Below, one piece after another: positions 455 through 41,208 of a stretch of 51,002 bases of DNA. Made by a program: the position numbers and the translations under genes. Under the pieces are notes generated by a model. The model had not been told where the DNA came from, did not search any database, and was given only the letters and a program-made list of their open reading frames with translations. How positions within the stretch are numbered: position 1 is the stretch's first letter; every line of letters starts with the position of its first letter. Location: the NCBI GenBank assembly GCA_949297775.1, contig CASFTM010000015.1, positions 1 through 51,002 on the forward strand, given 5' to 3'. The DNA is from an uncultured bacterium (GTDB lineage: Bacteria > Elusimicrobiota > Elusimicrobia > Elusimicrobiales > Elusimicrobiaceae).

Positions 455-482
455 TTGACGCGTTTTTTTTTTTTGATAAATT
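455..482 (+). promoter_or_regulatory. T12-spacer promoter of pilin gene 1
   Basis: TTGACG (455-460) is separated by 16 nt (CG, twelve Ts, GA) from TAAATT (477-482), which ends six bases before the ATG at 489. The same geometry, with the same 16-nt spacer and T12, is found at 31800-31827 and 40668-40695. There is no Shine-Dalgarno, so the mRNA is probably leaderless. Confidence 0.55.
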
Positions 483-510
483 TTGCGTATGAGCAAAATT
501 TATCAAAAAA
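469..510. promoter_or_regulatory. 18-bp palindrome spanning -10 and start codon
   Basis: The left arm (469-486) and right arm (493-510) are perfect inverted repeats of 18 bp around the loop GTATGA, which contains the first bases of the ATG. If transcription starts at the ATG the left arm is not in the mRNA. The palindrome would then act in DNA, for example as an operator for a dimeric regulator, rather than as an RNA hairpin. It is conserved at 31834 and 40702. Confidence 0.55.
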
Positions 511-1010
511 CCCTTCCGGCGGGGAAAAACGCCGGATTTACGCTAATAGAGCTGTTAGTGGTCGTTTTAATCATTGGTATCCTGGCGGCGGTGGCACTTC
601 CGCAGTACCAGCTGGCGGTGGATAAGGCCCGCTACACGGAACTGCAAACCATCGGGGCCAAACTGCGTGATATGGTGGAGATGTATTATATGGCTAACGG
701 AGAATATCCCACGCAGTGGGCGGATTTGGATATCACTATCCCCGGCTGTAAAGAGGAAGGTTCTCTGTATGATTTGGTTTGCCAAAAAGTCCGCATTGAT
801 TTAAATGCAACCAATTTTAACGGTTGGGACGGCACAACACGTGCTTCCAGTAGTATGCTGGAAGGAAATGCCACCTATGTTTATTATTTTTTACATGCAG
901 GGAATAATTCCACATATGCAGGAAAAACGGAGTGCCAATCCTTAAATAACCGCGGAAAGAAACTTTGCAAAAGCCTTTGCGGAAGCGCCGGCCGCTGTTT
1001 TTTAAATTAA
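489..1010 (+). CDS. type IV prepilin-like protein (T12 cassette 1)
   Basis: This 173-residue prepilin has a 16-residue positively charged leader ending in NAG, cleavage expected before F17 (GFTLIELL), E at mature position 5, and a hydrophobic N-terminal helix of about 22 residues. The C-terminal domain is lineage-specific and carries five to six cysteines, including C-x12-C-K-S-L near the end. An upstream in-frame TTG (483) would add two residues, but ATG 489 fits the promoter geometry. The first ~130 nt are nearly identical to the genes at 31834 and 40702, after which the sequences diverge. It could be a minor pilin, a pseudopilin or a major pilin variant; family assignment is firm, the role is not. 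Confidence 0.9.
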   Translation: MSKIYQKTLPAGKNAGFTLIELLVVVLIIGILAAVALPQYQLAVDKARYTELQTIGAKLRDMVEMYYMANGEYPTQWADLDITIPGCKEEGSLYDLVCQKVRIDLNATNFNGWDGTTRASSSMLEGNATYVYYFLHAGNNSTYAGKTECQSLNNRGKKLCKSLCGSAGRCFLN

Positions 1011-1030
1011 TCCGTCCACGATTTGCCACA

Positions 1031-1062
1031 ACCCGGGGTTGCACAAACGCCCCGGGTTTTTT
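1031..1062 (+). terminator. intrinsic terminator after pilin gene 1
   Basis: CCCGGGG pairs with CCCCGGG and is followed by TTTTTT, about 20 nt after the pilin stop codon. Confidence 0.85.
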
Positions 1063-1118
1063 GCGTCGGGCAGATTGGCCCGTCTGCCGTTCGTCGTAAT
1101 TTAGTAAAATATATCTAT

Positions 1119-2969
1119 ATGATAGATATCAAAGACCTTTCCTTCCATTTTGGCCTTCGCACCTTGTTTGAAGACACTTCCGTAATGATTCAGGACGGGC
1201 AGAAAGTGGGGCTGGTGGGCCCGAACGGTTGCGGCAAAAGTACGCTTTTTAAATTGATTGAAGGAAAGTTCTCGCCAGACGGCGGGAAAATTGATGTCTC
1301 CCGCGGCACCAAAATTGCTTCCGTGGCGCAGGATATTTTGGACCCCTCCGTCCCTCTGCTGGACTATGTACTGGCCAGCGACAAAGAGCTTTCCTCCCTG
1401 CAAAAAGAATTGGAAAACCCCAATATCTCCGGCGAACGGATGGCGGAAGTGTTTGACCGGTTGGAATTTTTGGGCGCCCACAGCGCCGAGGCCCGTGCCA
1501 GCGCCATTTTAAGCGGTCTTGGGTTTCTAAACGAGGATTTCCGCCGCCCGCTGAAAGAATTTTCCGGCGGCTGGCAGGTGCGCGCCAACGTGGCGGCGTG
1601 TTTGTATGCGCCGTCCAACTGCCTGCTGTTGGACGAACCCACCAATCACCTGGATTTGGAAACCGCCATGTGGCTGGAAAATTATCTCGTCCGCCTGGAC
1701 AAAACGATTTTCATCATCAGCCACGACCGCCACATTTTAAACCGCCTCTGCGATAAAATCATCCACGTAGAGGATGCCCAACTGAAACTGTATAACGGCA
1801 ATTACGATACCTACGAACGCACCCGCGCCGCCGCCATAGAAGGCGCCCGCTTGGCTGCTGCCAAGCACGAACGCGTGGTGGCGCATTTGCAGTCGTTTGT
1901 GGACCGCTTCCGCTATAAGGCCACCAAAGCCAAACAGGCGCAGAGCCGTATTAAAATGATTGAAAAACTCGGCGACGCGCCCGCTATCCCCAAGGACCCG
2001 GAAGTGCATTTTCAATTTCCTTCGCCGGAGCGGCTGCAGAATTCGCTTGTAACGATAGAAAACGGCGTTGCCGGGTATGACGATAAACCCGTCTTGCAAA
2101 ATTTAAATTTACGCATAGAGCCTGATGACCGTATTGCGCTGTTGGGCGCCAACGGCAACGGCAAATCCACGCTGGCTAAAATTTTGTCGCACCGGCTGCT
2201 GCTGATGTCGGGGAAAATGACGATGGCTAAAAAAATGAAAATCGCCTATTTCTCCCAGCACCAAACCGAAGAATTGGACGTGGAAAAAACCCCTTACGAG
2301 CAGCTTTCCGCCGTAATGCCCTTGGCTACGGAAACGCAAATCCGCGCCCAGCTGGGGGCGTTTGGGCTAAATAAAGCCAAGTCGGATACAGAAATCGGCA
2401 AGCTGTCCGGCGGCGAAAAATCCCGCCTGCTTTTGGCGCTTATCACTAAGGATGCGCCGCACTTGCTTATTTTGGACGAACCCACCAACCACCTGGATAT
2501 CCAATCCCGCCAGGCATTGTTGGAAGCCTTAAACAATTACGAAGGTGCGGTGGTGCTTATCACGCACGATTTGCACGTGATTGAATATACCTGCGATACC
2601 TTGTGGATTGTATGCCGCGGTACGTGCCAAACGTTTACCGGCGATTTGGAAGATTACAAGGCCCAACTGTTAAAAAATAACGACCGCAACGACCTTGCCA
2701 GCGACAAAATGACTTCCAAAGAAGCCCAGCGCAAAGCCGCTGCTCAGCGGCGCGCGCGGGTGGCGCCGCTTAAAAAGGAAATCCGCGCCCTGGATGAAAA
2801 AATAGAAAAACTCTCCGCCCGCAAAAAAGCCTTAGAGGACCAACTGACCGTGCAATATTCCGCCGACAGCAGCATTGAACTGGCCCTGCTGACCGACCAA
2901 TTAAAAAACGCCGAGGACGAATGGATGCGCCTGAGCGAAGAGTACGAACAGGCCTGCGCCGCCGATTAA
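1119..2969 (+). CDS. ABC-F family ATPase (YheS-like)
   Basis: A soluble 616-residue protein with two ABC cassettes and no membrane segments, as in ABC-F ribosome-associated ATPases. The first Walker A is GPNGCGKST (34-42), followed by FSGGW and LLLDEPTNHLD. A linker with ATKAKQAQSRIKM follows, then a second Walker A (GANGNGKST), LSGGE and LDEPTNHLD, and a charged coiled-coil C-terminus of about 80 residues. Linker and tail resemble E. coli YheS most. The reading frame is open further upstream, but ATG 1119 matches the start of the family and lies 8 nt after a TAAAAT hexamer with no Shine-Dalgarno, so it is probably leaderless. It is followed 4 nt later by the helicase gene and likely co-transcribed. 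Confidence 0.92.
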   Translation: MIDIKDLSFHFGLRTLFEDTSVMIQDGQKVGLVGPNGCGKSTLFKLIEGKFSPDGGKIDVSRGTKIASVAQDILDPSVPLLDYVLASDKELSSLQKELENPNISGERMAEVFDRLEFLGAHSAEARASAILSGLGFLNEDFRRPLKEFSGGWQVRANVAACLYAPSNCLLLDEPTNHLDLETAMWLENYLVRLDKTIFIISHDRHILNRLCDKIIHVEDAQLKLYNGNYDTYERTRAAAIEGARLAAAKHERVVAHLQSFVDRFRYKATKAKQAQSRIKMIEKLGDAPAIPKDPEVHFQFPSPERLQNSLVTIENGVAGYDDKPVLQNLNLRIEPDDRIALLGANGNGKSTLAKILSHRLLLMSGKMTMAKKMKIAYFSQHQTEELDVEKTPYEQLSAVMPLATETQIRAQLGAFGLNKAKSDTEIGKLSGGEKSRLLLALITKDAPHLLILDEPTNHLDIQSRQALLEALNNYEGAVVLITHDLHVIEYTCDTLWIVCRGTCQTFTGDLEDYKAQLLKNNDRNDLASDKMTSKEAQRKAAAQRRARVAPLKKEIRALDEKIEKLSARKKALEDQLTVQYSADSSIELALLTDQLKNAEDEWMRLSEEYEQACAAD

Positions 2970-2973
2970 GGTT

Positions 2974-4467
2974 ATGAACGACTTTTCTATCCTGCCCGAA
3001 TTTTTGCAAACCGCCCTTAAACGGCTTAACATTACGGAACCGACCCCCGTGCAGGCGGGCGCGGTGGGCCCCGCACTGCAGGGGCGCGACGTGCTGGCAA
3101 CCGCACAGACGGGTACCGGCAAAACGTTTGCTTTCCTGTTGCCGTTAGCGGTGCGCCTGGCCCAAAATCCTGAAGAAAATGCGCTTGTTTTGTCGCCCAC
3201 GCGCGAACTGGCCCAGCAGACTCAAAACGAATTAAAAAAGCTCTTTTCGGACGATTTTACGCTTCAAACCGCGCTTGTGGTGGGCGGGGACAATATCCAC
3301 AAGCAATATGCCGATTTGCGCGATAAACCGCGCGTGATTATCGCTACGCCCGGGCGGCTGTTGGACCATATGGGCCGAAAAAGCGTCAATCTGAAAAAAA
3401 CCCATATGTTGGTGCTGGACGAAACCGACCGGATGCTGGATATGGGGTTTATTGACGATATGCGGAGGATTGTATCCGCCTTGCCTGCGCCGCGGCAGAC
3501 GATGCTTTTTTCCGCCACTCTTCCCAAGGAAATGGAAGCCTTGGCAAAAGAGTTTCTGCACAGTCCGGTGCGCGTAAAAATCGGTTCCGTGGTAACGCCG
3601 GCCGATTTGGTGGTGCAGGAAATTGTGCATGTGGACGTGCGCGAAAAACTGTCCCAGCTGCTGCACGAACTGAACACGCGCCAAGGCTCCATTTTAATTT
3701 TTACCCGCACCAAACACGGCGCGGAGCGGTTGGCTAAACAGCTTAAACTGTACGGGCAAAAAGCCAACGCTCTGCACGGGGAACTGCGCCAAAACCGCCG
3801 CCGGCAGGTGCTGGAATTTTTCCGAAGCGGCGCCGTGCGTATTTTGGTAGCTACCGATTTGGCGGCCCGCGGAATTGACGTGCCGCACATCGCGCACGTC
3901 ATTAACTACGACTTGCCCCAATCCCCGGAAGATTATATCCACCGCATTGGGCGCACGGGGCGCGCCGGCTCGGTGGGGGCAGCGCTTTCGCTGATTTCGG
4001 ACGACGGGCAAAAATGGAAAGATATTTGCAAAGTTACCCGTTTTTCTATCCCCGTCAAAACCGTTCAAAAAACCATTGAACCCCTGCCCGCGCCTAAATT
4101 CGTGGCGCAGGAGGAAGGCGCCGCCCACGCCAAAAACCGCCGCAAAACGCCTGCCCGGAGCCAGGCGAATGCCGCACCGTCAAAACTTTCCGCCCAGCCG
4201 GCAGAATCTTTGCGCGCACCAGGGGAGGCTGCCTGCTCTATAAAGAAAAAGCCCGCCCCAAAACGCACTTTGCCGCCCACACCGCGTGTGCAGGCGCAGC
4301 CCGCCGCGCCAGCCGGAACAAACCCGTTCCGTACGGTAAAAGTCGGCGCCAGCAAAAAAGCTTTGGCCCGCAGGAAGGAAACGGAACGGAAACCAAACAG
4401 CACTGCCCAATCAACCAGAAAAAATAAAAAGGCTTTTGCCAAATTCTTTAAGCGCAAACGGCGTTGA
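2974..4467 (+). CDS. DEAD-box ATP-dependent RNA helicase
   Basis: A 497-residue helicase with the Q motif (TPVQ), motif I AQTGTGKT (44-51), PTRELAQQ, TPGR, motif II DETD in place of the commoner DEAD, SATL, and HRIGRTGRAG in the second RecA-like domain. A basic tail of about 130 residues, rich in K, R, A and P, follows the core and probably binds RNA. The start follows the ABC-F stop by 4 nt with AAGG upstream. The pairing with an ABC-F ATPase suggests a shared role in ribosome or RNA handling. The subfamily (RhlE, DbpA or CsdA-like) cannot be fixed by eye; the compact core looks RhlE-like. Confidence 0.92.
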   Translation: MNDFSILPEFLQTALKRLNITEPTPVQAGAVGPALQGRDVLATAQTGTGKTFAFLLPLAVRLAQNPEENALVLSPTRELAQQTQNELKKLFSDDFTLQTALVVGGDNIHKQYADLRDKPRVIIATPGRLLDHMGRKSVNLKKTHMLVLDETDRMLDMGFIDDMRRIVSALPAPRQTMLFSATLPKEMEALAKEFLHSPVRVKIGSVVTPADLVVQEIVHVDVREKLSQLLHELNTRQGSILIFTRTKHGAERLAKQLKLYGQKANALHGELRQNRRRQVLEFFRSGAVRILVATDLAARGIDVPHIAHVINYDLPQSPEDYIHRIGRTGRAGSVGAALSLISDDGQKWKDICKVTRFSIPVKTVQKTIEPLPAPKFVAQEEGAAHAKNRRKTPARSQANAAPSKLSAQPAESLRAPGEAACSIKKKPAPKRTLPPTPRVQAQPAAPAGTNPFRTVKVGASKKALARRKETERKPNSTAQSTRKNKKAFAKFFKRKRR

Positions 4468-4479
4468 ATGCGGAATATA

Positions 4480-4519
4480 AAAAAGTAAAACCCCGGGATG
4501 AACCGGGGTTTTACTTTTT
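4480..4519. terminator. bidirectional terminator
   Basis: A long symmetric stem, AAAAGTAAAACCCCGG with CCGGGGTTTTACTTTT, sits between the convergent helicase (+) and pilin (-) genes. T runs on both strands let it serve both. Confidence 0.85.
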
Positions 4520-4547
4520 AAGGGAATACAGATTGGCTGACAGCTGT

Positions 4548-5036
4548 TTATGAGCCGATTACATACAAGCTGCCTAATTTGGAATCGCTTAACGCTTCAC
4601 ACAGCCACTTGTATTTTTCCGAGTTGCTGGAACAGGTGAGCAAATCCTTACGTTTTGTGCCGGAATCAAAGACGTAATACATTCTAAAGCAATAGGTGTT
4701 GCTGTAGGAATTATTCCCATCTATACGACAGGCGGAAATATTGTTTGCGGAAAAAGTATAGTGAAATTTTCCAATATTAAAGGAACTGCTGTTGGGGGTG
4801 TCCGCATCAAAAAAAGATACGTCCAGCCCGTTTAATTTCAAGGGGTCTTCGGAGTTGGCGGCGCGGTAGCGTTTGGCAGAATCAAAAATTGCGCGCAGGT
4901 TTGTCAGCGCTTCTATGGCTTCGGCGCGCTGCACCGAGCGGCGGTACTGCGGCATAGCCACCGAAGTTAAAATCGCAATAATCAATACAACAGCTAACAA
5001 TTCAATCAACGTAAAACCGGATTTGATATGGTTCAT
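4548..5036 (-). CDS. type IV prepilin-like protein
   Basis: This 162-residue prepilin has the short leader MNHIKSG, cleavage expected before F8, then TLIELLAVVLIIAILTSVA. The C-terminal domain ends with C-x10-C in the same position as in the other pilin-like genes here. ATG 5036 is chosen over the upstream in-frame ATG 5117 because AAGGAG lies just before it and the leader is then of normal length. It lacks the T12 cassette and has an ordinary promoter. It is divergent from the pilin gene at 5172, so the pair may be co-regulated from the ~135-bp gap. Confidence 0.9.
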   Translation of the reverse strand: MNHIKSGFTLIELLAVVLIIAILTSVAMPQYRRSVQRAEAIEALTNLRAIFDSAKRYRAANSEDPLKLNGLDVSFFDADTPNSSSFNIGKFHYTFSANNISACRIDGNNSYSNTYCFRMYYVFDSGTKRKDLLTCSSNSEKYKWLCEALSDSKLGSLYVIGS

Positions 5037-5058
5037 AAAATCTCCTTGTTCTTTGTAC

Positions 5059-5087
5059 AGTATATCGGTTTTTCGGGGTTTTTTCAA
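5059..5087 (-). promoter_or_regulatory. sigma-70 type promoter of pilin (4548-5036)
   Basis: On the minus strand TTGAAA (5087-5082) and TATACT (5064-5059) are separated by 17 nt, about 25 nt upstream of the ATG. Confidence 0.75.
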
Positions 5088-5111
5088 TATGGAATTTCGT
5101 AGAAAAACTCC

Positions 5112-5139
5112 TTGCAAGCGCTAGAAAAAAGGCTATAAT
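5112..5139 (+). promoter_or_regulatory. sigma-70 type promoter of pilin (5172-5699)
   Basis: TTGCAA (5112-5117) and TATAAT (5134-5139) are separated by 16 nt. AGAGG precedes the ATG at 5172. Confidence 0.7.
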
Positions 5140-5171
5140 AAATATAGTATTCCAATTTTAAAGAGGTTTTT

Positions 5172-5699
5172 ATGCACAGTAAATGTATCCGGAAAGGGTT
5201 TACCCTGACAGAATTGATGGCAGTAGTGATTATCGTTTCTATTTTGGCAGGGATAGCAATCGGTTCGTATAAAAAAGCCGTGGAACGCAGTCACTTTGCC
5301 GAAGGCTTGTCGGCTGGGGCTGCCGTGGCGGAAGCGGTCAGCCGGTTTGATTATGAGAACGAAGGCACTTCTTTTGAAACCCGCCGCCCGAAAATTTCGC
5401 AGCTGGATATTGGTTTTGAAAACGACCGTAAGTGTACGCAGTGGACGTCCGATGCGGATTACTGTTTTAAAACCCGCTATTTTGAGGTCATTGTACTGAA
5501 CTCAAATAGAATACAGGTAAACCGCGTTCAGGGAAATTCCTTGAAGGATTATTATTTTTACTTTTATCCGGAATCCAGAAGCCGCACGGCTGAGCAGTGC
5601 TGTTCGCGTTCTCAGTTGGGGGCGGATTTGTGCAAAAATATGGGGTATACTTCCTGCTCCGGTTCCGGCAGTTCGGTGCAGTGCAGCAAGCCGCTATAA
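5172..5699 (+). CDS. type IV prepilin-like protein, divergent
   Basis: A 175-residue prepilin with a basic leader (MHSKCIRKG) and cleavage before F10 in GFTLTELMAVVIIVSILAGIA. The helix is more divergent than in the other copies: the usual ALPQY is replaced by AIGSY, although the E at mature +5 is kept. The C-terminal half is cysteine-rich, with a CC pair and C-K-N-M-G near the end, matching the C-x8-12-C-[KQR] motif of its paralogues. This and the absence of ALPQY suggest a minor pilin or pseudopilin rather than the main subunit, which is inference. Confidence 0.88.
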   Translation: MHSKCIRKGFTLTELMAVVIIVSILAGIAIGSYKKAVERSHFAEGLSAGAAVAEAVSRFDYENEGTSFETRRPKISQLDIGFENDRKCTQWTSDADYCFKTRYFEVIVLNSNRIQVNRVQGNSLKDYYFYFYPESRSRTAEQCCSRSQLGADLCKNMGYTSCSGSGSSVQCSKPL

Positions 5700-5715
5700 C
5701 TGTTTTGTGCAAGCA

Positions 5716-5748
5716 TAAGCCCGCCGGATAAATTCCGGCGGGCTTTTT
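5716..5748 (+). terminator. intrinsic terminator
   Basis: AAGCCCGCCGG pairs with CCGGCGGGCTT and is followed by a T run, 17 nt after the pilin stop. Confidence 0.85.
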
Positions 5749-5868
5749 GTTGTATCCGGGATTAAATGAAAAGTTTTAGTTGAGGAAATAGCCTTCAAAC
5801 CGGGCTTCTTTCTTGAGGCCCAATCGTGTGGTTGGCAATGCCGTATGGGTGTTACAGATAAAAAGACA

Positions 5869-6137
5869 TAAAAAAACCATAAAGTTTTGGCTTTATGGTC
5901 CGCTTGGCCGTTTTAGACAGGCGGAAGAAAATTTCTTCCCCTGTCCGCCGGTGAATGTCTGGCCGGCTGCAAACTGCTCTGTGGGAGGCCGCCTATGCGG
6001 CGCTTCCGGTTATTTCTTGCTGATCATGTAATGCGCGCCGCTTACGTTTTCGCCGACTTTAACGAGCGCTTCAGCCATTTTTTCCAAAATCTTGGTCATT
6101 TTTTCCTCCTGTTAAAATTATTTTTATTTTCTTTTCT
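5869..6137 (-). ncRNA. candidate small transcript carrying a 29-codon ORF
   Basis: Read on the minus strand, a near-consensus promoter (6172-6144) and a good intrinsic terminator (CCATAAAG with CTTTATGG, then seven Ts, at 5899-5869) delimit a transcript of about 270 nt. It holds a short ORF with an ideal Shine-Dalgarno at the 5' end, then about 110 nt with a strong hairpin at 5945-5916 (14 bp with one bulge). It could be a small-protein mRNA, a regulatory RNA, or both. The plus-strand gap between the pilin and nadB contains no other gene. Confidence 0.55.
6010..6099 (-). CDS. 29-residue amphipathic small protein, function unknown
   Basis: The peptide begins MTKILEKMAEALVKVGENVS and ends in ISKK. 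AGGAGG ends 5 nt before the ATG, the strongest ribosome-binding site in the window, and a TTTACA-17-TATAAT promoter lies upstream. The N-terminal 17 residues have hydrophobic residues spaced as in an amphipathic helix (I4, L5, M8, L12, V13), with acidic and basic residues between them. There is no cysteine, so an Agr-type thiolactone is unlikely. I do not recognise the family. Candidates are a small membrane-associated regulator or a PSM-like peptide; both are speculation. Confidence 0.55.
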   Translation of the reverse strand: MTKILEKMAEALVKVGENVSGAHYMISKK

Positions 6138-6143
6138 TAAAAT

Positions 6144-6172
6144 ATTATACAAATTTTATGAACGGTTGTAAA
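6144..6172 (-). promoter_or_regulatory. near-consensus promoter of the small transcript
   Basis: On the minus strand TTTACA (6172-6167) and TATAAT (6149-6144) are exactly 17 nt apart. Five of six and six of six bases match the sigma-70 consensus. Confidence 0.75.
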
Positions 6173-6269
6173 TTAAGGGGATATATAATAACAAATATAA
6201 AATAAATATGCAAGAAAAATTTAGCTTTTTTTCAAGCTTGGCGGCCCTGTCCTTTTATATAATATAAGC

Positions 6270-7829
6270 ATGAAAGTACTGCATACGGATTGTTTGGTAA
6301 TCGGGGGCGGCATTGCCGGGTGTGTATATGCGCACCAAGCCGCCAAAAAAGGGCTTAAAACGATGCTCTTGTGCTGCGGGGAAATGCCCCAGGCAAACAG
6401 TGATTTGGCCCAAGGGGGGATTGTCTATGAACCCCGCTTGAATATGGACGATTTATTGGCCGACGTCCAAATGGCCACCGCCGGTATGTGCAACGCCGAA
6501 GCGGTAAAAGAAATTTCCGCCGCCGGCTGCAAAGCCGTAGAAGAAGTGTTTTTAAAAGATTTGTCCGTTCCTTTTGACCGCGACGAAAAACATCAACTGC
6601 GCTTTACGCGTGAAGGCGCCCACCGCAAAAACCGCATTATTTATTCCAAAGACACCACCGGCCACGCGATGTTAAACGCCATCCAGGACGCCGTGCGCAA
6701 AAACCCGCAAATCACCGTGCGGGAATTTGCTTCCGCAATTGATTTATTAACCCTTTCGCACAGCTCGCCCGACCCGATGGACCGCTACTATCCGCTGACG
6801 GTATTCGGCGCATACGTTTTGGACAACAAAACGGGAGAAGTGTTTGCCGTCACCGCCAAGAAAACCGTTTTGGCTACCGGAGGAGTGGGGCAGGTCTACC
6901 GCCATACCACCAACGCCGACCATGCCTACGGGCACGGAATTGCTATGGCGTACCGCGTGGGGGCGCGTGTGATGAATATGGAGTTTTTGCAATTCCATCC
7001 CACGGTGTTTGCCAAAGGGAAAAGCTTTCTCTTGTCCGAAGCGCTGCGCGGCGAAGGAGCCATTCTGCGCAACTGCAACGGGGAAGCTTTTATGGCAAAA
7101 TACCACCCGCTCAAAGACTTGGCCCCGCGCGACATCGTGGCCCGCGCCATTGAAGAAGAACGCCTAAAAACTTCCCACGATTGCGTGTATTTGGATATTA
7201 CCGCCAATCCTGCGGAAGAGACCAAAGAACGCTTTCCGGCAATTTACAAAAAATGCTTGGAAGAAGGCTTTGATATGACCAAAGTGCCCGTGCCGGTGGT
7301 GCCAGCGGCGCACTATTTCTGCGGCGGCGTGTACGCCACGCCGGACGGACGCACCAACATTGCGCACCTAAACGCCATTGGCGAAACCGCCTGCACCGGC
7401 TACCACGGGGCAAACCGTTTGGCAAGCACCTCGCTGCTGGAAGCGGTGGCGATGGGGTATTTGTGTGCCGAGTCGGACGCCAAAGAAATCGCCAACGGTT
7501 CTTTCCATATTCCGCAGCCCAAACCGTGGGTGGTGCCGGAAGAAAAGCCGGATTTGAACTTAGTCAAGCAAGACTTGGCCACCCTGCGCAATACGATGTG
7601 GAACTATGTAGGCTTAATCCGCAGCCGCAAGCACTTGGACCGCGCGGAAAAAATTCTGCGCCACCTGCACAACGAAATTGACGTGTTCTATAAAGGAGCG
7701 GCGTTGTGCCAGGAATTGTTGGACCTGCGCAACGGCACGCAGACGGCGCTTTTAATTACTTACGCCGCTTTGAAAAACCGCCATTCGGTGGGGTGCCATT
7801 ACCTGTCGGATGAAGTGAAATCCGCCTAA
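6270..7829 (+). CDS. nadB: L-aspartate oxidase
   Basis: NadB oxidises L-aspartate to iminoaspartate with FAD, the first step of de novo NAD synthesis. The 519-residue protein begins with the dinucleotide-binding motif GGGIAGCVYA and keeps SDLAQGGI, ATGGVGQVY, the substrate region FLQFHPT, SEALRGEGAIL, AHYFCGGV and GANRLASTSLLE, followed by the C-terminal helical domain. TATAAT (6258-6263) ends 6 nt before the ATG with no Shine-Dalgarno, so the mRNA is probably leaderless. No nadA or nadC is adjacent; the NAD synthetase lies at 45746. The active-site loop reads REGAHRKNRII where many NadB proteins have EGGHS, a modest variation. Confidence 0.93.
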   Translation: MKVLHTDCLVIGGGIAGCVYAHQAAKKGLKTMLLCCGEMPQANSDLAQGGIVYEPRLNMDDLLADVQMATAGMCNAEAVKEISAAGCKAVEEVFLKDLSVPFDRDEKHQLRFTREGAHRKNRIIYSKDTTGHAMLNAIQDAVRKNPQITVREFASAIDLLTLSHSSPDPMDRYYPLTVFGAYVLDNKTGEVFAVTAKKTVLATGGVGQVYRHTTNADHAYGHGIAMAYRVGARVMNMEFLQFHPTVFAKGKSFLLSEALRGEGAILRNCNGEAFMAKYHPLKDLAPRDIVARAIEEERLKTSHDCVYLDITANPAEETKERFPAIYKKCLEEGFDMTKVPVPVVPAAHYFCGGVYATPDGRTNIAHLNAIGETACTGYHGANRLASTSLLEAVAMGYLCAESDAKEIANGSFHIPQPKPWVVPEEKPDLNLVKQDLATLRNTMWNYVGLIRSRKHLDRAEKILRHLHNEIDVFYKGAALCQELLDLRNGTQTALLITYAALKNRHSVGCHYLSDEVKSA

Positions 7830-7845
7830 CTATCAGCCAAATTTA

Positions 7846-8130: not shown

Positions 8131-8133
8131 AAA

Positions 8134-8297: not shown

Positions 8298-8301
8298 GCA
8301 T

Positions 8302-9948
<1,647 letters not shown>

Positions 9949-15703: not shown

Positions 15704-15797
15704 GGACTGTTTCGGTAGGGCGCGACAGTGCGGAAACGGTGGGGCTTATTTAGTCGTGCTAACGGGGAAAGAGAAGGGAGCACCGGCTCGGTGCCCC
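15704..15797. repeat. structured repeat unit (TAACGGG family)
   Basis: One unit with ACTGTTTC...GAAACGGT (one U-G pair on plus-strand RNA), TTAGTCGTGCTAACGGGGAAAGAG and the hairpin GCACCG-GCT-CGGTGC. At the same place other copies have GGCCAG/CTGGCC or GCCCCG/CGGGGC, so the stem covaries. No pilin gene follows directly; lpxK ends upstream and a deacetylase-like gene ends downstream. Confidence 0.7.
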
Positions 15798-16000
15798 AGG
15801 GCCCATAAAAATCACTTCTAAGCGGGAAATTTTATAACTCGCGCGGGGACCGCGCTCAAACAATAAAATTTCTAATCCGTTTGAAAGGCTTTTTGTAGAC
15901 GGCTCTAAAGGGGCGGATAAACGGCAAACGACAACGGCAACAACAACAGCAACAACAACAGCCACGACAACGGCAACAACATAAGCGGAAACGACTTTCC
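15798..16000. repeat. long-hairpin repeat element, copy 2
   Basis: This copy is in the opposite orientation to 1-200. GAAATTTTAT pairs with ATAAAATTTC around the cap GCGCGG-GGA-CCGCGC (about 15821-15872). In copy 1 the equivalent arms are GGCGTTTTAT and ATAAACGCC, so the arms differ but still pair. It is followed by CGGCTCTAAAGGGG and a tract of CAA/AAC triplets (15926-15981). No gene is seen in the whole 15.60-16.12 kb interval. Confidence 0.6.
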
Positions 16001-31681: not shown

Positions 31682-31719
31682 AGTTGTATTATACTTTTTC
31701 CGGCGGGAAATTATTTGTT

Positions 31720-31799
31720 GTACTTTTTTGTGCCCAAAAAAGTACAGATAAAAATCATCGTGTTAACGGGCATAGAGCGGGGAGGCCAGCCTCTGGCCC
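31720..31799. repeat. GTAC hairpin plus structured repeat unit upstream of pilin
   Basis: GTACTTTTTT-GTGCCC-AAAAAAGTAC (31720-31745) is identical to 201-226. It is followed by TCGTGTTAACGGGCATAGAG and the hairpin GGCCAG-CCT-CTGGCC (31755-31799). This is the minimal version of the block upstream of the pilin gene at 489, without the long stem or tandem duplication. Confidence 0.7.
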
Positions 31800-31827
31800 T
31801 TGATTTGTTTTTTTTTTTTGATAAATT
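31800..31827 (+). promoter_or_regulatory. T12-spacer promoter of pilin gene 2
   Basis: TTGATT (31800-31805), spacer TG + twelve Ts + GA (16 nt), TAAATT (31822-31827), then six bases to the ATG at 31834. The palindrome TTTTTTGATAAATTTTG with its reverse complement (17 bp) covers the -10 and start codon, as at 489. Confidence 0.55.
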
Positions 31828-31833
31828 TTGCGT

Positions 31834-32361
31834 ATGAACAAAATTTATCAAAAAACCCACCCGGCGGGGGAAAACGCTGGATTTACGCTAATAGAGCTAT
31901 TAGTAGTGGTTTTAATTATTGGTATTCTGGCGGCGGTAGCCTTGCCGCAGTACCAAAAAGCCGTGGAGAAATCCCGCGCGGCGGAAGGCCTTGCAATGAT
32001 GCGAAGCCTGGCAATGGGATTTGACGAATATGTTATGGCTAACGGAGAAATTCCTACCAGTTTTGATCAAATAAGCATAACGCCTATCAAATCTACTGCA
32101 AATGGCAGTTGTGTGGCCAGTAAAAATTTTAGATATTGTTTAGAATATTCCCGCTTGCAATCCTGGAGCCAACAAATTGAACAATATGGATTTCTTTGGT
32201 ATTCCGGTATGCAAGAGATTGGTTCTTCCGGGAAACAGTTTTATTGCTATGAACTAAAAAATTCTTCAGCCAATAAAATGAATATATGCCAATCTATAGG
32301 CGGAAAAAATAAAATGGACAGTTTAACGAATAGTGCGTATTATTGGTACGCATTGGATTAA
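31834..32361 (+). CDS. type IV prepilin-like protein (T12 cassette 2)
   Basis: A 175-residue prepilin with a 16-residue leader (MNKIYQKTHPAGENAG), cleavage before F17, and TLIELLVVVLIIGILAAVALPQYQKAVEKSRAAEG. The C-terminal domain differs completely from cassettes 1 and 3 but ends with the same type of motif, C-Y-E-L-x9-C-Q-S-I-G. ATG 31834 is chosen over TTG 31828 by analogy with the other two cassettes. The first ~130 nt match cassette 3 almost base for base, so recent exchange of the 5' half is likely. Confidence 0.9.
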   Translation: MNKIYQKTHPAGENAGFTLIELLVVVLIIGILAAVALPQYQKAVEKSRAAEGLAMMRSLAMGFDEYVMANGEIPTSFDQISITPIKSTANGSCVASKNFRYCLEYSRLQSWSQQIEQYGFLWYSGMQEIGSSGKQFYCYELKNSSANKMNICQSIGGKNKMDSLTNSAYYWYALD

Positions 32362-32365
32362 AAAT

Positions 32366-34150: not shown

Positions 34151-34163
34151 TTTTGATATCCTT

Positions 34164-35246: not shown

Positions 35247-36360
35247 ATTCCGCCTCCGCGGGTTTTGTTCCGCCGTCTTGCGTCTGCGTTACAGCGGCGG
35301 CGGTTTTGGGCGCAAAGAAAATGCGTTTAATGTCCGAGTACGACGCATACACCACCAACATCAGCAGGATAAACAACCCTACATTGGCGGCGTGGTTGAG
35401 CATTTTTTCCGTCGGAAGTTTGTGGGTCAGCCCTTCCCATAAGTATACTAATGCGTATCCGCCGTCCAGTATTGGAATGGGGAACAAATTGAACATCCCC
35501 ACCGCGAGGGAGAGCATCGCAATTAAAAAGATAAAGTCAAACCAGCTGCGGTGCACCGACTGGTGGATGATGTTTACAATGCCAATCGGGCCGGCCAGCT
35601 CGGGGGCTTTCTTTTGGGTAAAGCTTTGGCCCAAAGAGGTAAGCGAAAATTTCGTCCAGTAATAGCACTGGTACACGCCCAGCCCGGCGGCTTTCCACAG
35701 CGGAACTTTGTTATACGTCGGGTTGACGGTGATGCCCAGCACGGTGGGGGCGCTTTCTTTAAAATCGCTGTCTTTTACGGTGGCCGTCATCGTTTTGCCG
35801 TCGCGTTCATAGGTTAGCACCACGTTGCCTTTGCGCTCGGCCATAGCCAGGGTTAATTCTTTCCAGTTGGCGATGTCTGTGCCGTTAATTTGGCGGATGA
35901 GGTCGCCTTCTTGCAGATCCAGTTTTTCGGCCGGATATCCTTTGGCTACCGTACCTACGGCGGCAGGCAGCTTGACGGGGTCCGTTTCCGGCATACCTTT
36001 AATGTAAATCAATACGCCGAAAATAAGCGCCGCCAGCACATAGTTAAACAGCGCGCCGTTGACCACCATAAAAAATTTGGCGTACCATTTTTTGGCGGCG
36101 AATTCGTACGGTTTGGGCGGTTCGGGCGCATCCTCGGGGTGGAACATCGGGCCGGCGGGCTCCACAAATCCGCCAAACGGAATGGCGCGGATTTGGTAGT
36201 CTGTATCGCCCACTTTTTTATGCCACAGAATTTTGCCAAACCCGAACGAAAACTCATTCACGCGGATGCCCGTCAGGCGGCAGGCCAAGTAGTGCCCAAA
36301 CTCGTGCACGATGACAATCGGGCTAAGCACAATGATAACGGCAATGATGGATAAAAGCAT
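35233..36360 (-). CDS. rseP: RseP-like site-2 zinc metalloprotease
   Basis: A 375-residue intramembrane protease with the zinc motif HEFGH in the first transmembrane segment (residues 19-23), one PDZ domain (~135-215), and the second active-site motif NLFPIPILDGG in a later transmembrane segment. E. coli RseP has two PDZ domains; one is visible here, as in many bacterial homologues. A ~30-residue cytoplasmic tail follows the last helix. It probably cleaves an anti-sigma factor or signal-peptide remnants. The position between dxr and ispG is a conserved arrangement. Confidence 0.93.
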   Translation of the reverse strand: MLLSIIAVIIVLSPIVIVHEFGHYLACRLTGIRVNEFSFGFGKILWHKKVGDTDYQIRAIPFGGFVEPAGPMFHPEDAPEPPKPYEFAAKKWYAKFFMVVNGALFNYVLAALIFGVLIYIKGMPETDPVKLPAAVGTVAKGYPAEKLDLQEGDLIRQINGTDIANWKELTLAMAERKGNVVLTYERDGKTMTATVKDSDFKESAPTVLGITVNPTYNKVPLWKAAGLGVYQCYYWTKFSLTSLGQSFTQKKAPELAGPIGIVNIIHQSVHRSWFDFIFLIAMLSLAVGMFNLFPIPILDGGYALVYLWEGLTHKLPTEKMLNHAANVGLFILLMLVVYASYSDIKRIFFAPKTAAAVTQTQDGGTKPAEAEYVQD

Positions 36361-36368
36361 ATCTTCTC

Positions 36369-37568
36369 CTAAATGACGGCTTTTTTATAGCTCTTTTCTT
36401 TCAAACACGCCCGGGCTGTTTCGCGCGCCCATTGGTCGGCCTCCAACGCCTGGTTGAGCGTGGCGTCCCCTTGGGTATGGGGGGCGGCCTTCAGCACGGT
36501 GTAGACCAATTTGGCGATGTCGGTAAATTTAATTTGCTCGTTTAAAAACGCGTCTACGGCAATCTCGTCCGCCGCGCTTAATACGGCCGGCAAAATGCCG
36601 CCTTTGCGCGCCGCCGCCAAGGCCAAATCTAGGCAGGGGAAGCGGTCCAAATCCGGTTCAAAAAATTCCAGTTTGGCGGCTTCAAACAAATTGAGTTTTT
36701 TCACCGGGCCCGGCGCGCGGTGCGGGTAGGTGATGGCGTACTGAATGGGTACGCGCATATCGGGTTCGCCCATTTGGGCCAAAATGGCCCCGTCGTTAAA
36801 TTCCACCGCGGAGTGTACGATAGATTGCGGGTGGATGACGATTTGCACTTTTTCTTCGGGCAGTCCGAACAAATTCATAATTTCAATAGACTCAAAGCCT
36901 TTATTCATTAGGGTAGCGGAGTCTATCGTTATTTTTTTGCCCATCCGCCAACGCGGGTGGTTTAGGGCCTCGCCGGGCGTAACGGTGGAAAGCGCCCCTT
37001 TGCGCTTGGCAAACGGACCGCCCGAAGCGGTTAAAAACACGCGGGAAATTTGCGGTTCCAGCTTGGTGTACCCGTGTTCGTCCGCCAGGCCGCTTAAGCA
37101 TTGGAAAATAGCCGAAGGTTCGCTGTCCACCGGCAAAATGGCGGCTTCCCAGCGTTCGCATTCTTTCATCAGCGTTTTGCCCGCCATTACCATTGGTTCT
37201 TTGTTCGCCAGGGCGATGGTCTTTCCGGCCTTAATAGCGCTGACCAGCGGCTGAAACCCAACCGCGCCCACCACGCCGCTGACGATTAAATCCGCCGTCG
37301 GCAGAGAGGCCATAAACATCAGGCTTTCAATTTCCGGCGGCAATAAGCGGGTGCCTTCGGGCAGCTGGTCTTTAATTTTTTCGTAACTTTCCGGGTTTAA
37401 GACGGCTGCAAAGCGGGGGCGGAAGGTATGGAGCTGTTTTAAAAAAAGTTCAGTATTGTTGTTGGCGGATAACGCCATTACGCGGTATTCTTTGCCCAGG
37501 CGCGCAATCACGTCCAAAGCCGAGGTGCCGATAGAACCAGTGGAGCCTAAAATAACGATGTTTTTCAT
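36369..37568 (-). CDS. dxr: 1-deoxy-D-xylulose 5-phosphate reductoisomerase
   Basis: Dxr (IspC) converts DXP to MEP using NADPH. The 399-residue protein has the NADPH motif LGSTGSIGTSALDV, ALANKEPMVMAG, the metal and substrate motif PVDSEPSAIFQCL, TASGGPFA, HPRWRMGKKITIDSATLMNKG, and HPQSIVHSAVEFNDG. It overlaps the cdsA stop by 4 nt (ATGA) and lies 8 nt before rseP. Confidence 0.96.
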   Translation of the reverse strand: MKNIVILGSTGSIGTSALDVIARLGKEYRVMALSANNNTELFLKQLHTFRPRFAAVLNPESYEKIKDQLPEGTRLLPPEIESLMFMASLPTADLIVSGVVGAVGFQPLVSAIKAGKTIALANKEPMVMAGKTLMKECERWEAAILPVDSEPSAIFQCLSGLADEHGYTKLEPQISRVFLTASGGPFAKRKGALSTVTPGEALNHPRWRMGKKITIDSATLMNKGFESIEIMNLFGLPEEKVQIVIHPQSIVHSAVEFNDGAILAQMGEPDMRVPIQYAITYPHRAPGPVKKLNLFEAAKLEFFEPDLDRFPCLDLALAAARKGGILPAVLSAADEIAVDAFLNEQIKFTDIAKLVYTVLKAAPHTQGDATLNQALEADQWARETARACLKEKSYKKAVI

Positions 37569-38383
37569 AACGTATAGAGCACCACGTAGTAGAATAACGG
37601 CGCGAGCAGCAGGTAAGAGTCAAAACGGTCTAAAAATCCGCCGTGCCCCGGAAGCAGATTGGATGAATCTTTTACGCCCGTGGAGCGTTTGATGACGGAT
37701 TCGGCCAAGTCGGACACCTGCCCCACCACCGCCACCAGAAGCCCCAATAAAATGGCTTCTTTCACGGAGAACAGCGTAGATAAAAACAAATGCCGCATCA
37801 GCACCGCTCCGCCTACCGCCAGCAAGGTGCCTCCGACGGCGCCTTCCCAGGTTTTCTTGGGGCTGACTTCCTGGTTCAGCTTATGCCGCCCGAAGAAGCG
37901 CCCGCTAAAGTAGGCGCCCGTATCGCTGATCCAGACGGTGATAATCATAAACAGGGTTAAATATTCGCCATAGGTGGCGATGTCGCGCAAATTAATGAGG
38001 TGCGCCAACGACCACGGAATTAAAAACACGCCCGTAAAGGTGTTGCAAACGCGGTCCCAGGAACGTTTGGGGGTAAGAACTTCCACCAAAAGAACGCCAA
38101 AAATCACTACGCTGATGGCAAAGGGGTACAAATTATCCGGCAAATTGCCTATTTCTGTGGGTGTTCGCCCTAAAATGGCCACCGCCGCCATCAACAAACC
38201 AAAGAGCATTAAGCTGATCATATGCACCGGTTTCTTGCCGGCAGTCAGCACCAGCCCGTATTCGTACAGGCACAATAAAATTACACAGCCTACAAACGCC
38301 ATGTAAATAACGCCGCCAAAGTGGATAGCGGCTAAAATAACGGGGACCCCAATCAGGGCGGTTAAAATTCTAGGTAATAGCAT
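37565..38383 (-). CDS. cdsA: phosphatidate cytidylyltransferase
   Basis: CdsA makes CDP-diacylglycerol from phosphatidate and CTP at the inner membrane. The 272-residue protein has about eight transmembrane segments and the family signature S-x-LAESVIKRSTGVKDSSNLLPGHGG-LDRFDS near the C-terminus, with SDTGAYFSGRFFGRHKL upstream. It heads the operon. On the minus strand TAAAAT (38395-38390) ends 6 nt before the ATG and there is no Shine-Dalgarno, so the operon mRNA is probably leaderless. Confidence 0.95.
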   Translation of the reverse strand: MLLPRILTALIGVPVILAAIHFGGVIYMAFVGCVILLCLYEYGLVLTAGKKPVHMISLMLFGLLMAAVAILGRTPTEIGNLPDNLYPFAISVVIFGVLLVEVLTPKRSWDRVCNTFTGVFLIPWSLAHLINLRDIATYGEYLTLFMIITVWISDTGAYFSGRFFGRHKLNQEVSPKKTWEGAVGGTLLAVGGAVLMRHLFLSTLFSVKEAILLGLLVAVVGQVSDLAESVIKRSTGVKDSSNLLPGHGGFLDRFDSYLLLAPLFYYVVLYTL

Positions 38384-38438
38384 ACTTTTATTTTACTATA
38401 TTTAGACGGGTTTATCCGGGTAAAAAGAGGCGCCGGCG

Positions 38439-38957
38439 TTAGTGGCAGAGGACTTTTTCAAACGCGTGGCGCGCCTGGTGCGCCCGGACGAAAATAATTC
38501 CGCAGTCGGTAAATCCGCACCGGGCAAGCAGTTGTTGCATAGAAAAATTTTGGGGATGGGTGTCGGCCCGGAGTGAAAAGATGTTTTGCGCCAGGGCGGC
38601 CTGTTCCCAAAATTCCAATACCTGCAGGGCGGCCCCCGTGCCGCGGAGCTTTTCCGTCAGCGCAAAGCGGTGCAGCACGCAGTAGGCGCCGTCAGACAGC
38701 CAGGCGCCTTGTTCAATGCGGCGGTATGGAATTTCATCTTCAAACGACAATGCAAAATAGCCGTGCACGTCGCCCTGGGTTTGCAGGATGTAGCCTTTTC
38801 CGCGTGCGATGTCGTCCTGTAAAATTTCCTCATTGGGGTACCCGTCCTGCCATTGGTCCACCCGGCGGACTTTTAAGAGTGTTTTAGCCTGCCGGATAAT
38901 TTGCTTAATGCGCGGCAAATCGTCGGGCCGGGCGGTTCGGAGGAGGATATCGTTCAT
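38439..38957 (-). CDS. GNAT family N-acetyltransferase
   Basis: A 172-residue single-domain GNAT protein with an N-terminal RTARPDDLPRIKQIIRQAK, a central YFALSFEDEIPYR strand, and the acetyl-CoA-binding segment RFALTEKLRGTGAALQVLEFWEQAA. The P-loop is RGTGAA. The substrate is unknown; the family covers small molecules and protein N-termini. The ATG overlaps the stop of the DNA alkylation repair-like gene by 4 nt. Confidence 0.85.
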   Translation of the reverse strand: MNDILLRTARPDDLPRIKQIIRQAKTLLKVRRVDQWQDGYPNEEILQDDIARGKGYILQTQGDVHGYFALSFEDEIPYRRIEQGAWLSDGAYCVLHRFALTEKLRGTGAALQVLEFWEQAALAQNIFSLRADTHPQNFSMQQLLARCGFTDCGIIFVRAHQARHAFEKVLCH

Positions 38958-39670
38958 TTTCGTTTAGCCACCATTGCTTTGGTTTTGGGGTTTTTAAGCT
39001 CCCACAAGGCGTTGTTAGCCACCCACCGGGCGGATTTATTATCGGTGTATAAGTCCAAAATTTCTTCCGCTGCGGCGATGGCTTTGGGTGTAAGGCGCGG
39101 GTTTTTCTTGCCGATGTTGCGAAGCGCCCAGTTGACCGCTTTATGCACCATGGGCCGCGGGTCGCAGGCGTGGTTTTTGATAAGCGGAAACATTTTGATT
39201 AATTCTTCGTCCTTGGTTTTGGCGCGCGGCGCCGCCAGTACGCAAATAACCGCAAACCCCGCCCGGCGGACAAATTCTTCTTCGCGCTTAATCCAGTGTT
39301 CCGCCAATTTCAGCGGATTTTTTACTTTAGAAAACAAATTCCCGGCGCATAAATCGCAAATATCCCAGGAATTGAGTTCTTGGGCCCACGCATCCAGCTT
39401 TTCGCGTGTCATTTGCGCCGGATCCGCCAGCATAGAGGCCATAATCCGCGCTTCGTGTATGCCGCTTGCCCATAACGCTTCGGCCAGTTCCTGGTCCGGC
39501 CGCGGCAGGCCTTTAACCAGTACGCGCAGGGTGGTAACCGGAGTGCCCAAGGCTTTTTCCGTACAAATGCCAAAGCGCTGCGCCATCTGATTCTTGAAAG
39601 CGGGGGAGGAAAAACGTTTAATCCGCCGAATCATTTCTTCGGCGCGGGAACGGATAAGCGGGGTGGTCAT
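38954..39670 (-). CDS. DNA alkylation repair-like HEAT protein (AlkD family)
   Basis: A 238-residue, all-helical protein matching the DNA_alkylation family: SPAFKNQMAQRFGI, ELAEALWASGIHEARIMASMLAD, WAQELNSWDICDLCAGNLF, REEEFVRRAGFAVI, HDPRPMVHKAVNWALRNIGKKN. Members with intact catalytic Asp/Trp remove alkylated purines; the WD of SWDICD is present here. ATG 39670 is chosen over the upstream frame because GGAGG precedes it and the overlap with the uppS stop is ATGA. Function in this organism is inferred from family. Confidence 0.85.
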   Translation of the reverse strand: MTTPLIRSRAEEMIRRIKRFSSPAFKNQMAQRFGICTEKALGTPVTTLRVLVKGLPRPDQELAEALWASGIHEARIMASMLADPAQMTREKLDAWAQELNSWDICDLCAGNLFSKVKNPLKLAEHWIKREEEFVRRAGFAVICVLAAPRAKTKDEELIKMFPLIKNHACDPRPMVHKAVNWALRNIGKKNPRLTPKAIAAAEEILDLYTDNKSARWVANNALWELKNPKTKAMVAKRK

Positions 39671-40365
39671 ACTCCTCCAAAACGGCGTTTGCGGCGGCTG
39701 TACGCCCAAAGGGCTTTTTCAAATTCCGCTTCGTCAAAATCCGGCCACAAAACGGGGGTAAAATAAAATTCGCTGTATGCCGCCTGCCACAGCAAAAAGT
39801 TGGACAGCCGTTCTTCGCCCGACGTGCGGATGATGAGCTCCGGGTCCGGCAGCTGGGGTTGATAGAGCTGTTGGGAAATATCTTGCATCGTGATTTCTGT
39901 TTTGCCTTCCCGCAGCAGCGTATTGACGGCGTGGACAATTTCCTGCCGCGCACCGTAATTAAGCGCCAAGTTGAGGGTAAGGCCCGTGTTTCCGGAGGTA
40001 GAGCGGACGGCGTGGTCTATTTTATCCAAAACAGACGGCGGCAACGGTTCGCGCGCGCCGCTTACCAGCAGGCGCACGCCGTGTTTGGCGGCGTCCTGGG
40101 TGTAGCGGCCCAAGGTTTGTTCCAGCAATTTAAACAGCCCGCTTATTTCGTCTTGCGGGCGGGACCAATTTTCGGTGGAAAAAGCGTAAAGCGTTAAAAA
40201 TTTCACGCCTGCTTTTTGGGCGGCCTTCAAAGTGCGTTCCACGGCTTTAGCCCCGGCGTTGTGCCCGGCTAAGCGCGGCAAATGGCGTTCTTTGGCCCAG
40301 CGGCCGTTGCCGTCCATAATGACGGCTACGTGCGTTGGAACGGGGTTGGCGGCGGTTTCTGACAT
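39667..40365 (-). CDS. uppS: undecaprenyl diphosphate synthase
   Basis: UppS makes the C55 carrier lipid for peptidoglycan and O-antigen. The 232-residue protein has VAVIMDGNGRWA, GHNAGAKAV, YAFSTENWSRP, LNLALNYGARQEI and PDPELIIRTSGEERLSNFLLWQAAYSEFYF, the full cis-prenyltransferase set. On the minus strand TACAAT (40377-40372) ends 6 nt before the ATG with no Shine-Dalgarno, so it is probably leaderless. It heads the uppS-AlkD-like-GNAT unit. Confidence 0.96.
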   Translation of the reverse strand: MSETAANPVPTHVAVIMDGNGRWAKERHLPRLAGHNAGAKAVERTLKAAQKAGVKFLTLYAFSTENWSRPQDEISGLFKLLEQTLGRYTQDAAKHGVRLLVSGAREPLPPSVLDKIDHAVRSTSGNTGLTLNLALNYGARQEIVHAVNTLLREGKTEITMQDISQQLYQPQLPDPELIIRTSGEERLSNFLLWQAAYSEFYFTPVLWPDFDEAEFEKALWAYSRRKRRFGGV

Positions 40366-40427
40366 ATAAGTATTGTACCTTTTTTGGCGGTGAATAGGGG
40401 AGTTTTGCAGGAGCGGTGCAGCTCCGC

Positions 40428-40562
40428 TAACCGCGCTAACGGGTAAAGGAAAGGGCGGCCAGGCACGGGGGCCGTTGCGCCAGGGCGCGACAGCGCGGAA
40501 ACAGTGTGGCTCAACCAGTCGTGTTAACGGGCATAGAGAGGGGAGGCCAGGCTCTGGCCCGG
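40428..40562. repeat. structured repeat units upstream of pilin gene 3
   Basis: One and a half units. GCTAACGGGTAAAG with a GGCC(A)...GGCC hairpin is followed by CCAGGGCGCGACAGCGCGGAAACAGTGTGGC and TCGTGTTAACGGGCATAGAG with the hairpin GGCCAG-GCT-CTGGCC. The rest of the 40.37-40.70 kb interval (40563-40667) has no gene and a GC-rich CCCCGGC/GCCAAG-like stretch. Confidence 0.7.
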
Positions 40563-40667
40563 CTCGCCCCTTGCAGGAACATCCTCAACCAGTTGTTCCC
40601 TAATAGCGTAAGCACCGTATTTGGCAACCCCTTGGCCGGGGCCAAAAAGCCTGCCCCGGCAAGGGGG

Positions 40668-40695
40668 TTGATTTGTTTTTTTTTTTTGATAAATT
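40668..40695 (+). promoter_or_regulatory. T12-spacer promoter of pilin gene 3
   Basis: TTGATT (40668-40673), spacer TG + twelve Ts + GA (16 nt), TAAATT (40690-40695), then six bases to the ATG at 40702. The same palindrome arms (17 bp) flank the start codon. Confidence 0.55.
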
Positions 40696-40701
40696 TTGGC
40701 T

Positions 40702-41208
40702 ATGAGCAAAATTTATCAAAAAACCCACCCGACGGGGAAAAACGCCGGATTTACGCTAATAGAGTTATTAGTAGTGGTTTTAATTATTGGTATTCTGGCG
40801 GCGGTAGCCTTGCCGCAGTATCAACTGGCCGTAGCCAAAAGCCGCGCCGCCGAAGCCGTGAGCATTTTAAAGGCTATCACCGACGCACAGGAAGTATATT
40901 ATATGGCCAACGGCGAATATACCAATAATTTAGAGGATTTGGATATTGATGTTCCTGCCGAAACAAAGGCGTGGAGATTTCTCTGTTGGGGAAACGCCAC
41001 CTGTGGGGCCGCAAATAAAATAAAAAATTTGCCGAATGTGTTTGAATTCCGTATGGTAAATGTGCCGGAGGGGACAGGGGGAGCTTCGTACAGTGGAAAA
41101 CATTGGTGCCGTGCCTCTGGCAGCAATCCGATTGGCTTACAGATTTGTAGGACTTATGGCTCTTATGACTTTACACAAAATAACCAGCAGTACTACTTGA
41201 TGAGGTAA
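40702..41208 (+). CDS. type IV prepilin-like protein (T12 cassette 3)
   Basis: A 168-residue prepilin with a 16-residue leader (MSKIYQKTHPTGKNAG), cleavage before F17, TLIELLVVVLIIGILAAVALPQYQLAVAKSRAAEA, and a distinct C-terminal domain. Its last part carries the recurrent motif C-R-x9-C-R-T-Y-G. The first ~130 nt are nearly identical to cassette 2, and residues up to YYMANGEY resemble cassette 1. It stands alone with its own repeats and terminator, inserted between uppS and frr. Confidence 0.9.
   Translation: MSKIYQKTHPTGKNAGFTLIELLVVVLIIGILAAVALPQYQLAVAKSRAAEAVSILKAITDAQEVYYMANGEYTNNLEDLDIDVPAETKAWRFLCWGNATCGAANKIKNLPNVFEFRMVNVPEGTGGASYSGKHWCRASGSNPIGLQICRTYGSYDFTQNNQQYYLMR

Follow-up and report, generated by a model that had tools for sequence, protein, structure and literature searches.

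The transposable elements IS10 and IS50 are protected from impinging transcription, and in the vlp genes of Mycoplasma hyorhinis a homopolymer in the promoter spacer underlies phase variation. IS200 is protected likewise: one stem-loop terminates impinging transcripts and another hides the ribosome binding site (PMC3196728). Here we describe an inverted repeat that spans the start codons of three type IV pilin-like genes in a 51,002-nucleotide (nt) stretch of DNA from an uncultured bacterium of the Elusimicrobiaceae (assembly GCA_949297775.1, contig CASFTM010000015.1, positions 1 to 51,002, forward strand; hereafter the window). We observed its sequence architecture, its copy number, the co-variation of its arms, the reuse of its promoter module and its predicted folds. 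These suggest, with what we judge to be about even chances, a leaderless promoter for the pilins that carries its own fold-back insulation. A search of titles and abstracts, with poor coverage of subscription journals, found no paper on such an arrangement.

A sequence-only reading of the window had reported that three pilin genes share a promoter cassette, and that layout is exact, base for base, at all three sites: TTGACG or TTGATT, a 2-nt lead, twelve Ts (T12), GA, TAAATT, six bases and ATG, with the 16-nt spacer between -35 and -10 that had been described. The cassette ATGs lie at window positions 489, 31834 and 40702. A relaxed version of the pattern matches three times in the window, against 0.01 matches expected in shuffled sequence. 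The window's three remaining genes with a pilin motif (on the minus strand near 4953, on the plus strand near 5190 and 24102) lack the cassette, again as had been stated. All three cassette genes are type IV pilin-like with an N_methyl domain, as judged by profile matches, and scans of the window for Rfam families and tRNAs returned tRNA-Met only. That reading overlooked an inverted repeat across each start codon, which changes the likely mechanism. The features of the three sites are these:

455..482, plus strand: site 1 promoter, with -35 TTGACG at 455-460, T12 at 463-474, -10 TAAATT at 477-482 and a spacer of 16
469..486, plus strand: site 1 left palindrome arm, TTTTTTGATAAATTTTGC, 18 nt, 100% complementary to the right arm
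489..491, plus strand: ATG of site 1, lying in the loop between the arms; transcription is predicted to start here, 6 nt past the -10
493..510, plus strand: site 1 right palindrome arm, GCAAAATTTATCAAAAAA, inside codons 2-8
489..1010, plus strand: type IV pilin-like gene 1 (Pfam N_methyl PF07963; TIGR02532)
31800..31827, plus strand: site 2 promoter, with TTGATT, T12 at 31808-31819 and TAAATT at 31822-31827
31814..31855, plus strand: site 2 palindrome, arms 31814-31830 and 31839-31855 (17 nt, 100% complementary), ATG 31834-31836 in the loop
31834..32361, plus strand: type IV pilin-like gene 2 (N_methyl)
40668..40695, plus strand: site 3 promoter, with TTGATT, T12 at 40676-40687 and TAAATT at 40690-40695
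40682..40723, plus strand: site 3 palindrome, arms 40682-40698 and 40707-40723 (17 nt, 100% complementary), ATG 40702-40704 in the loop
40702..41208, plus strand: type IV pilin-like gene 3 (PF07963, PF16734, PF16732)

At each site the left arm consists of the last six Ts followed by GATAAATTTTG(C), the right arm lies in pilin codons 2-8, and the bases between the arms, six at site 1 and eight at sites 2 and 3, include the ATG. The predicted RNA folds of the three palindrome regions are far more stable than those of shuffled sequences (z of -3.9, -3.9 and -5.0), and an inverted repeat over the translation start is present in the predicted read-in RNA. For 47 palindromic pilins of the host genome, the predicted probability that nt +4 to +18 are unpaired is 0.09 in the read-through RNA and 0.83 in the native RNA.

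In the mechanism that we propose, a sigma-70-type promoter (TTGA, a 16-bp spacer containing T12, and TANANT) would start transcription at the A of the ATG and produce a leaderless mRNA. Because transcription would start at the AUG, the native mRNA would lack the left arm, which contains the -10 region; carrying only the right arm, formed by the first codons, it would stay open. RNA reading in from upstream would carry both arms and fold, burying codons 2-6 and holding the AUG in a small loop, and in this folded state would not be translated. We infer the transcription start site, the read-through and the translational block from sequence. The palindrome may thereby shield dozens of dispersed pilin genes, which are gained and lost, from the transcription of their neighbors and keep each of them under the control of its own promoter; pilins would need such insulation because their copies are scattered and unstable.

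As in IS200 (PMC3196728), a stem-loop in read-in RNA would cover the translation start. Unlike IS200, IS10 and IS50, the genes here are not transposases, the AUG sits in the loop, the native mRNA is predicted to be leaderless, and about 50 copies are dispersed. Since the protected genes are N_methyl pilins rather than transposases, the cassette would work like the fold-back of IS10 and IS200 without being a member of that group. It resembles bacterial leaderless genes (PMC10783764) in having a -10 about 6 nt before the ATG and no Shine-Dalgarno sequence (SD), but differs from ordinary leaderless genes in that its -10 and first codons are both covered by an inverted repeat.

The arms appear to be held complementary by a base-pair constraint. 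Codon 4 usually ends in the complement of the third -10 base (T, G, C or A opposite A, C, G or T, respectively); the usual pair is AT. We searched 66 genomes with the left arm fixed, a base other than A at the third -10 position, and the right arm free. Among the 49 places recovered, 39 pair at this position (30 CG, 7 GC and 2 TA) and 10 are unpaired; counted as distinct sequences, 21 of 29 pair, a number reached by 19 of 100,000 permutations. With codon 4 contributing its last base to the pair, the choice of ATT, ATG, ATC or ATA in that codon tracks the promoter. We then aligned all 29 variants with those 8 of the 11 loop types of the host genome that have the standard form, leaving out its copies with damaged arms. 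In this alignment, pairing holds in 90.8% of cells. The covariation score, 0.113, exceeds that of shuffled alignments (0.057; 0 of 500 reach it) and of slid versions (at most 0.055). The signal comes mainly from the -10/codon 4 pair, with 15 sequences changed on both sides. The innermost pair is the second contributor, with 7 changed on both sides, yet 19 of 37 are unpaired there, and most other pairs barely vary.

The sequence-only reading had proposed a search for further copies of the cassette, and the host genome, that of a small gut bacterium (1.69 Mb in 32 contigs), contains about 50 palindromic genes. A pattern search recovered 51 distinct copies and one more cut by the end of contig 29; several lie at contig ends, and one or two of these may duplicate another entry. 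The genome has 88 N_methyl pilin-motif matches, 87 of them above the cut-off. Starting from this protein motif rather than from the DNA pattern, 47 of 68 pilins (those of the 88 whose DNA was examined) have a start-codon inverted repeat scoring at least 10; random ATGs reach 12 or more in 0.7% of cases, a rough background that includes pilin ATGs. On contig 12, three copies stand in tandem, each with one palindrome. Two further copies, L181 and L182, have AAG or CTG in place of ATG between nearly intact arms, possibly through decay, use of an alternative start or assembly error.

Palindrome matches with up to two mismatches occur in 27 of 66 genomes of the genus, some as a single weak match, and a related pattern with up to three mismatches occurs in none of 24 genomes of another family. 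The exact palindrome has no match in viral contigs; the named genomes among the matches listed are Elusimicrobiales, Elusimicrobium sp., Candidatus Avelusimicrobium and uncultured bacterium. The window itself may come from Avelusimicrobium. The pilin family is extremely expanded, with 22 to at least 150 motif matches per genome in the 41 genus genomes searched (about 1.1-1.7 Mb each). Elusimicrobium minutum reportedly has a pilin expansion as well. The position of gene 2 could be compared in relatives, 8 of 10 of which have both flanks. G028 and G034 have no pilin there, only a 98- or 123-nt gap; G011, G020, G013, G070 (SD-led) and G068 (palindromic) have a different pilin; and G065 has one that resembles gene 2 by eye, with its start masked.

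The cassettes are very probably real pilin-associated leaderless promoters, judging from their composition and their fixed distance to the ATG; this part of the earlier description stood. All 51 palindromic copies of the host genome have TTGA and the -10 TAAATT, and in one, L004, the layout is TTGATTTGA-T12. A wider promoter search of the host genome found 59 places, namely these 51 and 8 with TACACT or TACAGT, of which 2 are cut by contig ends. Across the order, 46 of 149 genomes, in 2 of 19 genera, contain the exact T12 module, and some have it with a near-consensus -10, as in G035 (TTGACT and TACAAT). Because the T12 promoter recurs without a palindrome before SD-led pilins, it is a separable, promoter-like module, and the T12 is not a by-product of the palindrome.

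The start codon is also placed precisely. In 198 of 200 gathered copies, mostly loci fetched by palindrome or promoter patterns, the ATG begins exactly 14 nt after the G of GATA, or 6 nt after the -10, in a script that scanned 8-23 nt downstream and tried a distance of 14 first; two L272 entries in this set probably have the wrong start. All 14 counted pairs are present in 173 of the 198 in-register copies. None of 50 palindromic pilins of the host genome has an SD-like sequence, vs 11 of 18 non-palindromic ones, and at least 3 of the other 7 have an SD before a nested ATG. A -10 about 6-7 nt before the ATG together with no SD is the sequence pattern of a leaderless gene. The -10 position and the fixed spacing fit a transcript that would start inside the palindrome and lack the left arm.

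Relatives with leadered pilins follow the same masking trend on average, with exceptions, according to predicted folds. In seven genomes (G065, G017, G015, G007, G034, G012 and G066), a T-tract promoter is combined with a perfect or near-perfect palindrome that has no start codon in its loop, and a run of As and an SD-like sequence follow directly after it. Transcription is predicted to start in or beside the loop, and when read-through RNA folds, its U tract is predicted to base-pair with the A-run and the SD; the SD is predicted to be less accessible in the read-through RNA for 5 of 6 of these leadered palindromes. More broadly, across 49 leadered T-tract pilins, a few of which, for example L043 and L245, have an uncertain start, predicted SD accessibility is 0.29 in read-through RNA vs 0.55 in native RNA and is lower in 40 of the 49. 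For control SD genes (400 of 488), the corresponding values are 0.39 and 0.43, and the drop differs between the two sets at p=4e-8. In G107, a genome of the sister genus, the segment that separates the -10 from the predicted start is ACTCCT and faces the SD AGGGG.

Four SD-led T12 pilins, L205, L212, L302 and L303, share a predicted leader of 71-72 nt that contains a TTGATTTTTGGC...GCCTTTAAATCAA-like stem and may be a second regulatory RNA.

A more general proposal, for which we would put the chances slightly below even, is that the genus keeps tens of self-insulated pilin cassettes in which untranscribed upstream DNA is complementary to the translation start. The same logic would have been built several times with different pairings (a palindrome around a leaderless AUG, poly-U against AAAAAAGGAG, and ACTCCT against AGGGGT), such that any copy, whatever its location, would be translated only from its own promoter. 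Large surface-gene families need separate control of scattered copies. If fold-back insulation is correct, read-through protection of a transposon style operates in a pilin family, non-transcribed promoter DNA serves as a built-in lock, and a simple genomic signature, an initiation region complementary to the segment from -10 to +1, could be sought in other genomes.

Several observations weigh against fold-back insulation, or against parts of it. Ribosomes would in any case make poor use of a leaderless AUG lacking an SD in read-through RNA, which may therefore need no second block. By a crude measure, 24 of the 45 host-genome copies that were scored have their longest upstream frame pointing away, and little read-through is expected at those copies. 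The AUG itself is predicted to be unpaired in both RNAs (0.99 in the read-through loop and 0.82 in the native RNA, n=47), so the block would have to rest on the buried codons. About 3 of the 198 in-register leaderless copies have no palindrome, and the six readable places in the host genome with an alternative -10 also lack one, each followed by an SD-led pilin after a predicted leader of 67-75 nt. In the arm alignment, two of five pair measures are not above shuffles, which match them in 302 of 500 cases for changes on both sides and 101 of 500 for further pair types. Wobble and A-C mismatches, read by hand over the gathered copies, do not discriminate RNA from DNA pairing. Among the leadered relatives, the palindrome of L251 shows no difference (0.07 vs 0.05). 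Compared with dinucleotide-shuffled upstream DNA, SD masking in the 49 leadered pilins, whose paralogs are not independent, is marginal (0.29 vs 0.36, p=0.04, with 30 of 49 under the mean of their shuffles). G107 shows partial masking of the SD even in the native RNA (0.08-0.36 in seven copies), and in one copy, L376, the change is in the wrong direction.

The palindrome could instead act at the level of DNA, as an operator for a dimeric regulator or as a supercoiling-sensitive cruciform at the transcription start that controls the pilins jointly. Operators are typically located over the -10 and +1, which is where the palindrome sits, and its arms are long, AT-rich, perfect and near-identical in about 50 copies. 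We nevertheless consider this unlikely. Four pair types at one position fit pairing better than a fixed half-site, although a cruciform still accommodates them, and in several leadered relatives the fold predicted for read-through RNA hides the SD by means of G-U pairs, a feature that DNA symmetry leaves unexplained.

Slippage of the T12, altering the -35/-10 spacing and phase-varying each pilin, was the mechanism favored by the sequence-only reading. We regard it as improbable, though phase variation by the T tract is possible and could coexist with a role for the palindrome. A homopolymer does lie between the -35 and -10 of a surface-protein family, as in vlp and as in phase-variable promoters. 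Counting tract lengths in related genomes, as had been suggested, gave 8-17 among paralogs, and in most cases the -35/-10 spacing grows or shrinks by the same number of bases as the tract, indicating that slippage does happen; this spread is between paralogs in one genome per species, counted for runs of 8 or more. G100 is split between T11 (11 of 29) and T12 (13 of 29). Unlike in vlp, however, tract length is strongly centered on 12. In the host genome the run is 12 in 45 of 51 copies, 13 in two, 11 in two, and 10 and 9 in the rest, and T12 is modal in G035 (37 of 44) and G107 (17 of 26). No other run of nine or more Ts occurs in 432 kb of host DNA examined; together with the predominance of T12, this looks like stabilizing selection. 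The pattern reads as a tract length held near an optimum, with occasional slippage.

We assign a lower probability to a third possibility, that a promoter farther upstream makes the start-codon hairpin part of the native mRNA, where it would serve as a thermosensor, a stabilizer or the target of a trans-acting factor. Hairpins before SDs are common 5' stabilizers, and the regions are very stable, as their z scores indicate, but, of the upstream elements compared, the T12 promoter is the one that all three classes (leaderless, leadered with a palindrome, and without a palindrome) have in common, and its predicted start is in the loop. Least probable is that the palindrome is kept perfect without selection, by template-switch correction between arms and gene conversion among paralogs: the family is multi-copy with near-identical 5' ends, and arm correction would mimic co-variation, but the palindrome occurs in diverged pilins across those genus genomes that match, and amino-acid or codon changes (ATT/ATG/ATC/ATA, codon 4) follow the left arm.

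The DNA farther upstream contains additional hairpins and repeats:

439..453, plus strand: site 1 G+C-rich hairpin GCCCCG-GCT-CGGGGC, adjoining the -35; a predicted fold, weakly terminator-like
31784..31798, plus strand: site 2 terminator-like hairpin GGCCAG-CCT-CTGGCC, a weak call as a terminator
239..435, plus strand: 86-88 nt repeats in tandem, 5' of site 1, which belong to a family spread over the genome

A conserved upstream terminator, suggested by eye, is weakly supported. An upstream stem ends within 2 nt of the TTG in 40 of 48 copies of the host genome (mean z only -0.55) and in 97 of 142 from other genomes (mean z only -0.02), with no strong excess over shuffles, and the stem is not evident in the G015 copies inspected. 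Three kinds of repeat were also noted. The AGTCGTGTTAACGGGCATAGAG family, present in the window at 239-435 and also at 15752 and 16043, occurs in 54 places (up to 3 mismatches), often just 5' of pilin cassettes and sometimes elsewhere. A hairpin-forming GTACTTTTTTGTGCCCAAAAAAGTAC element lies 5' of pilin cassettes at window positions 31716-31745 and about 203-229. Finally, simple repeats of the CAACAA/ACAGCAAC type adjoin intergenic repeats at window positions 15940-15985 and 1-60.

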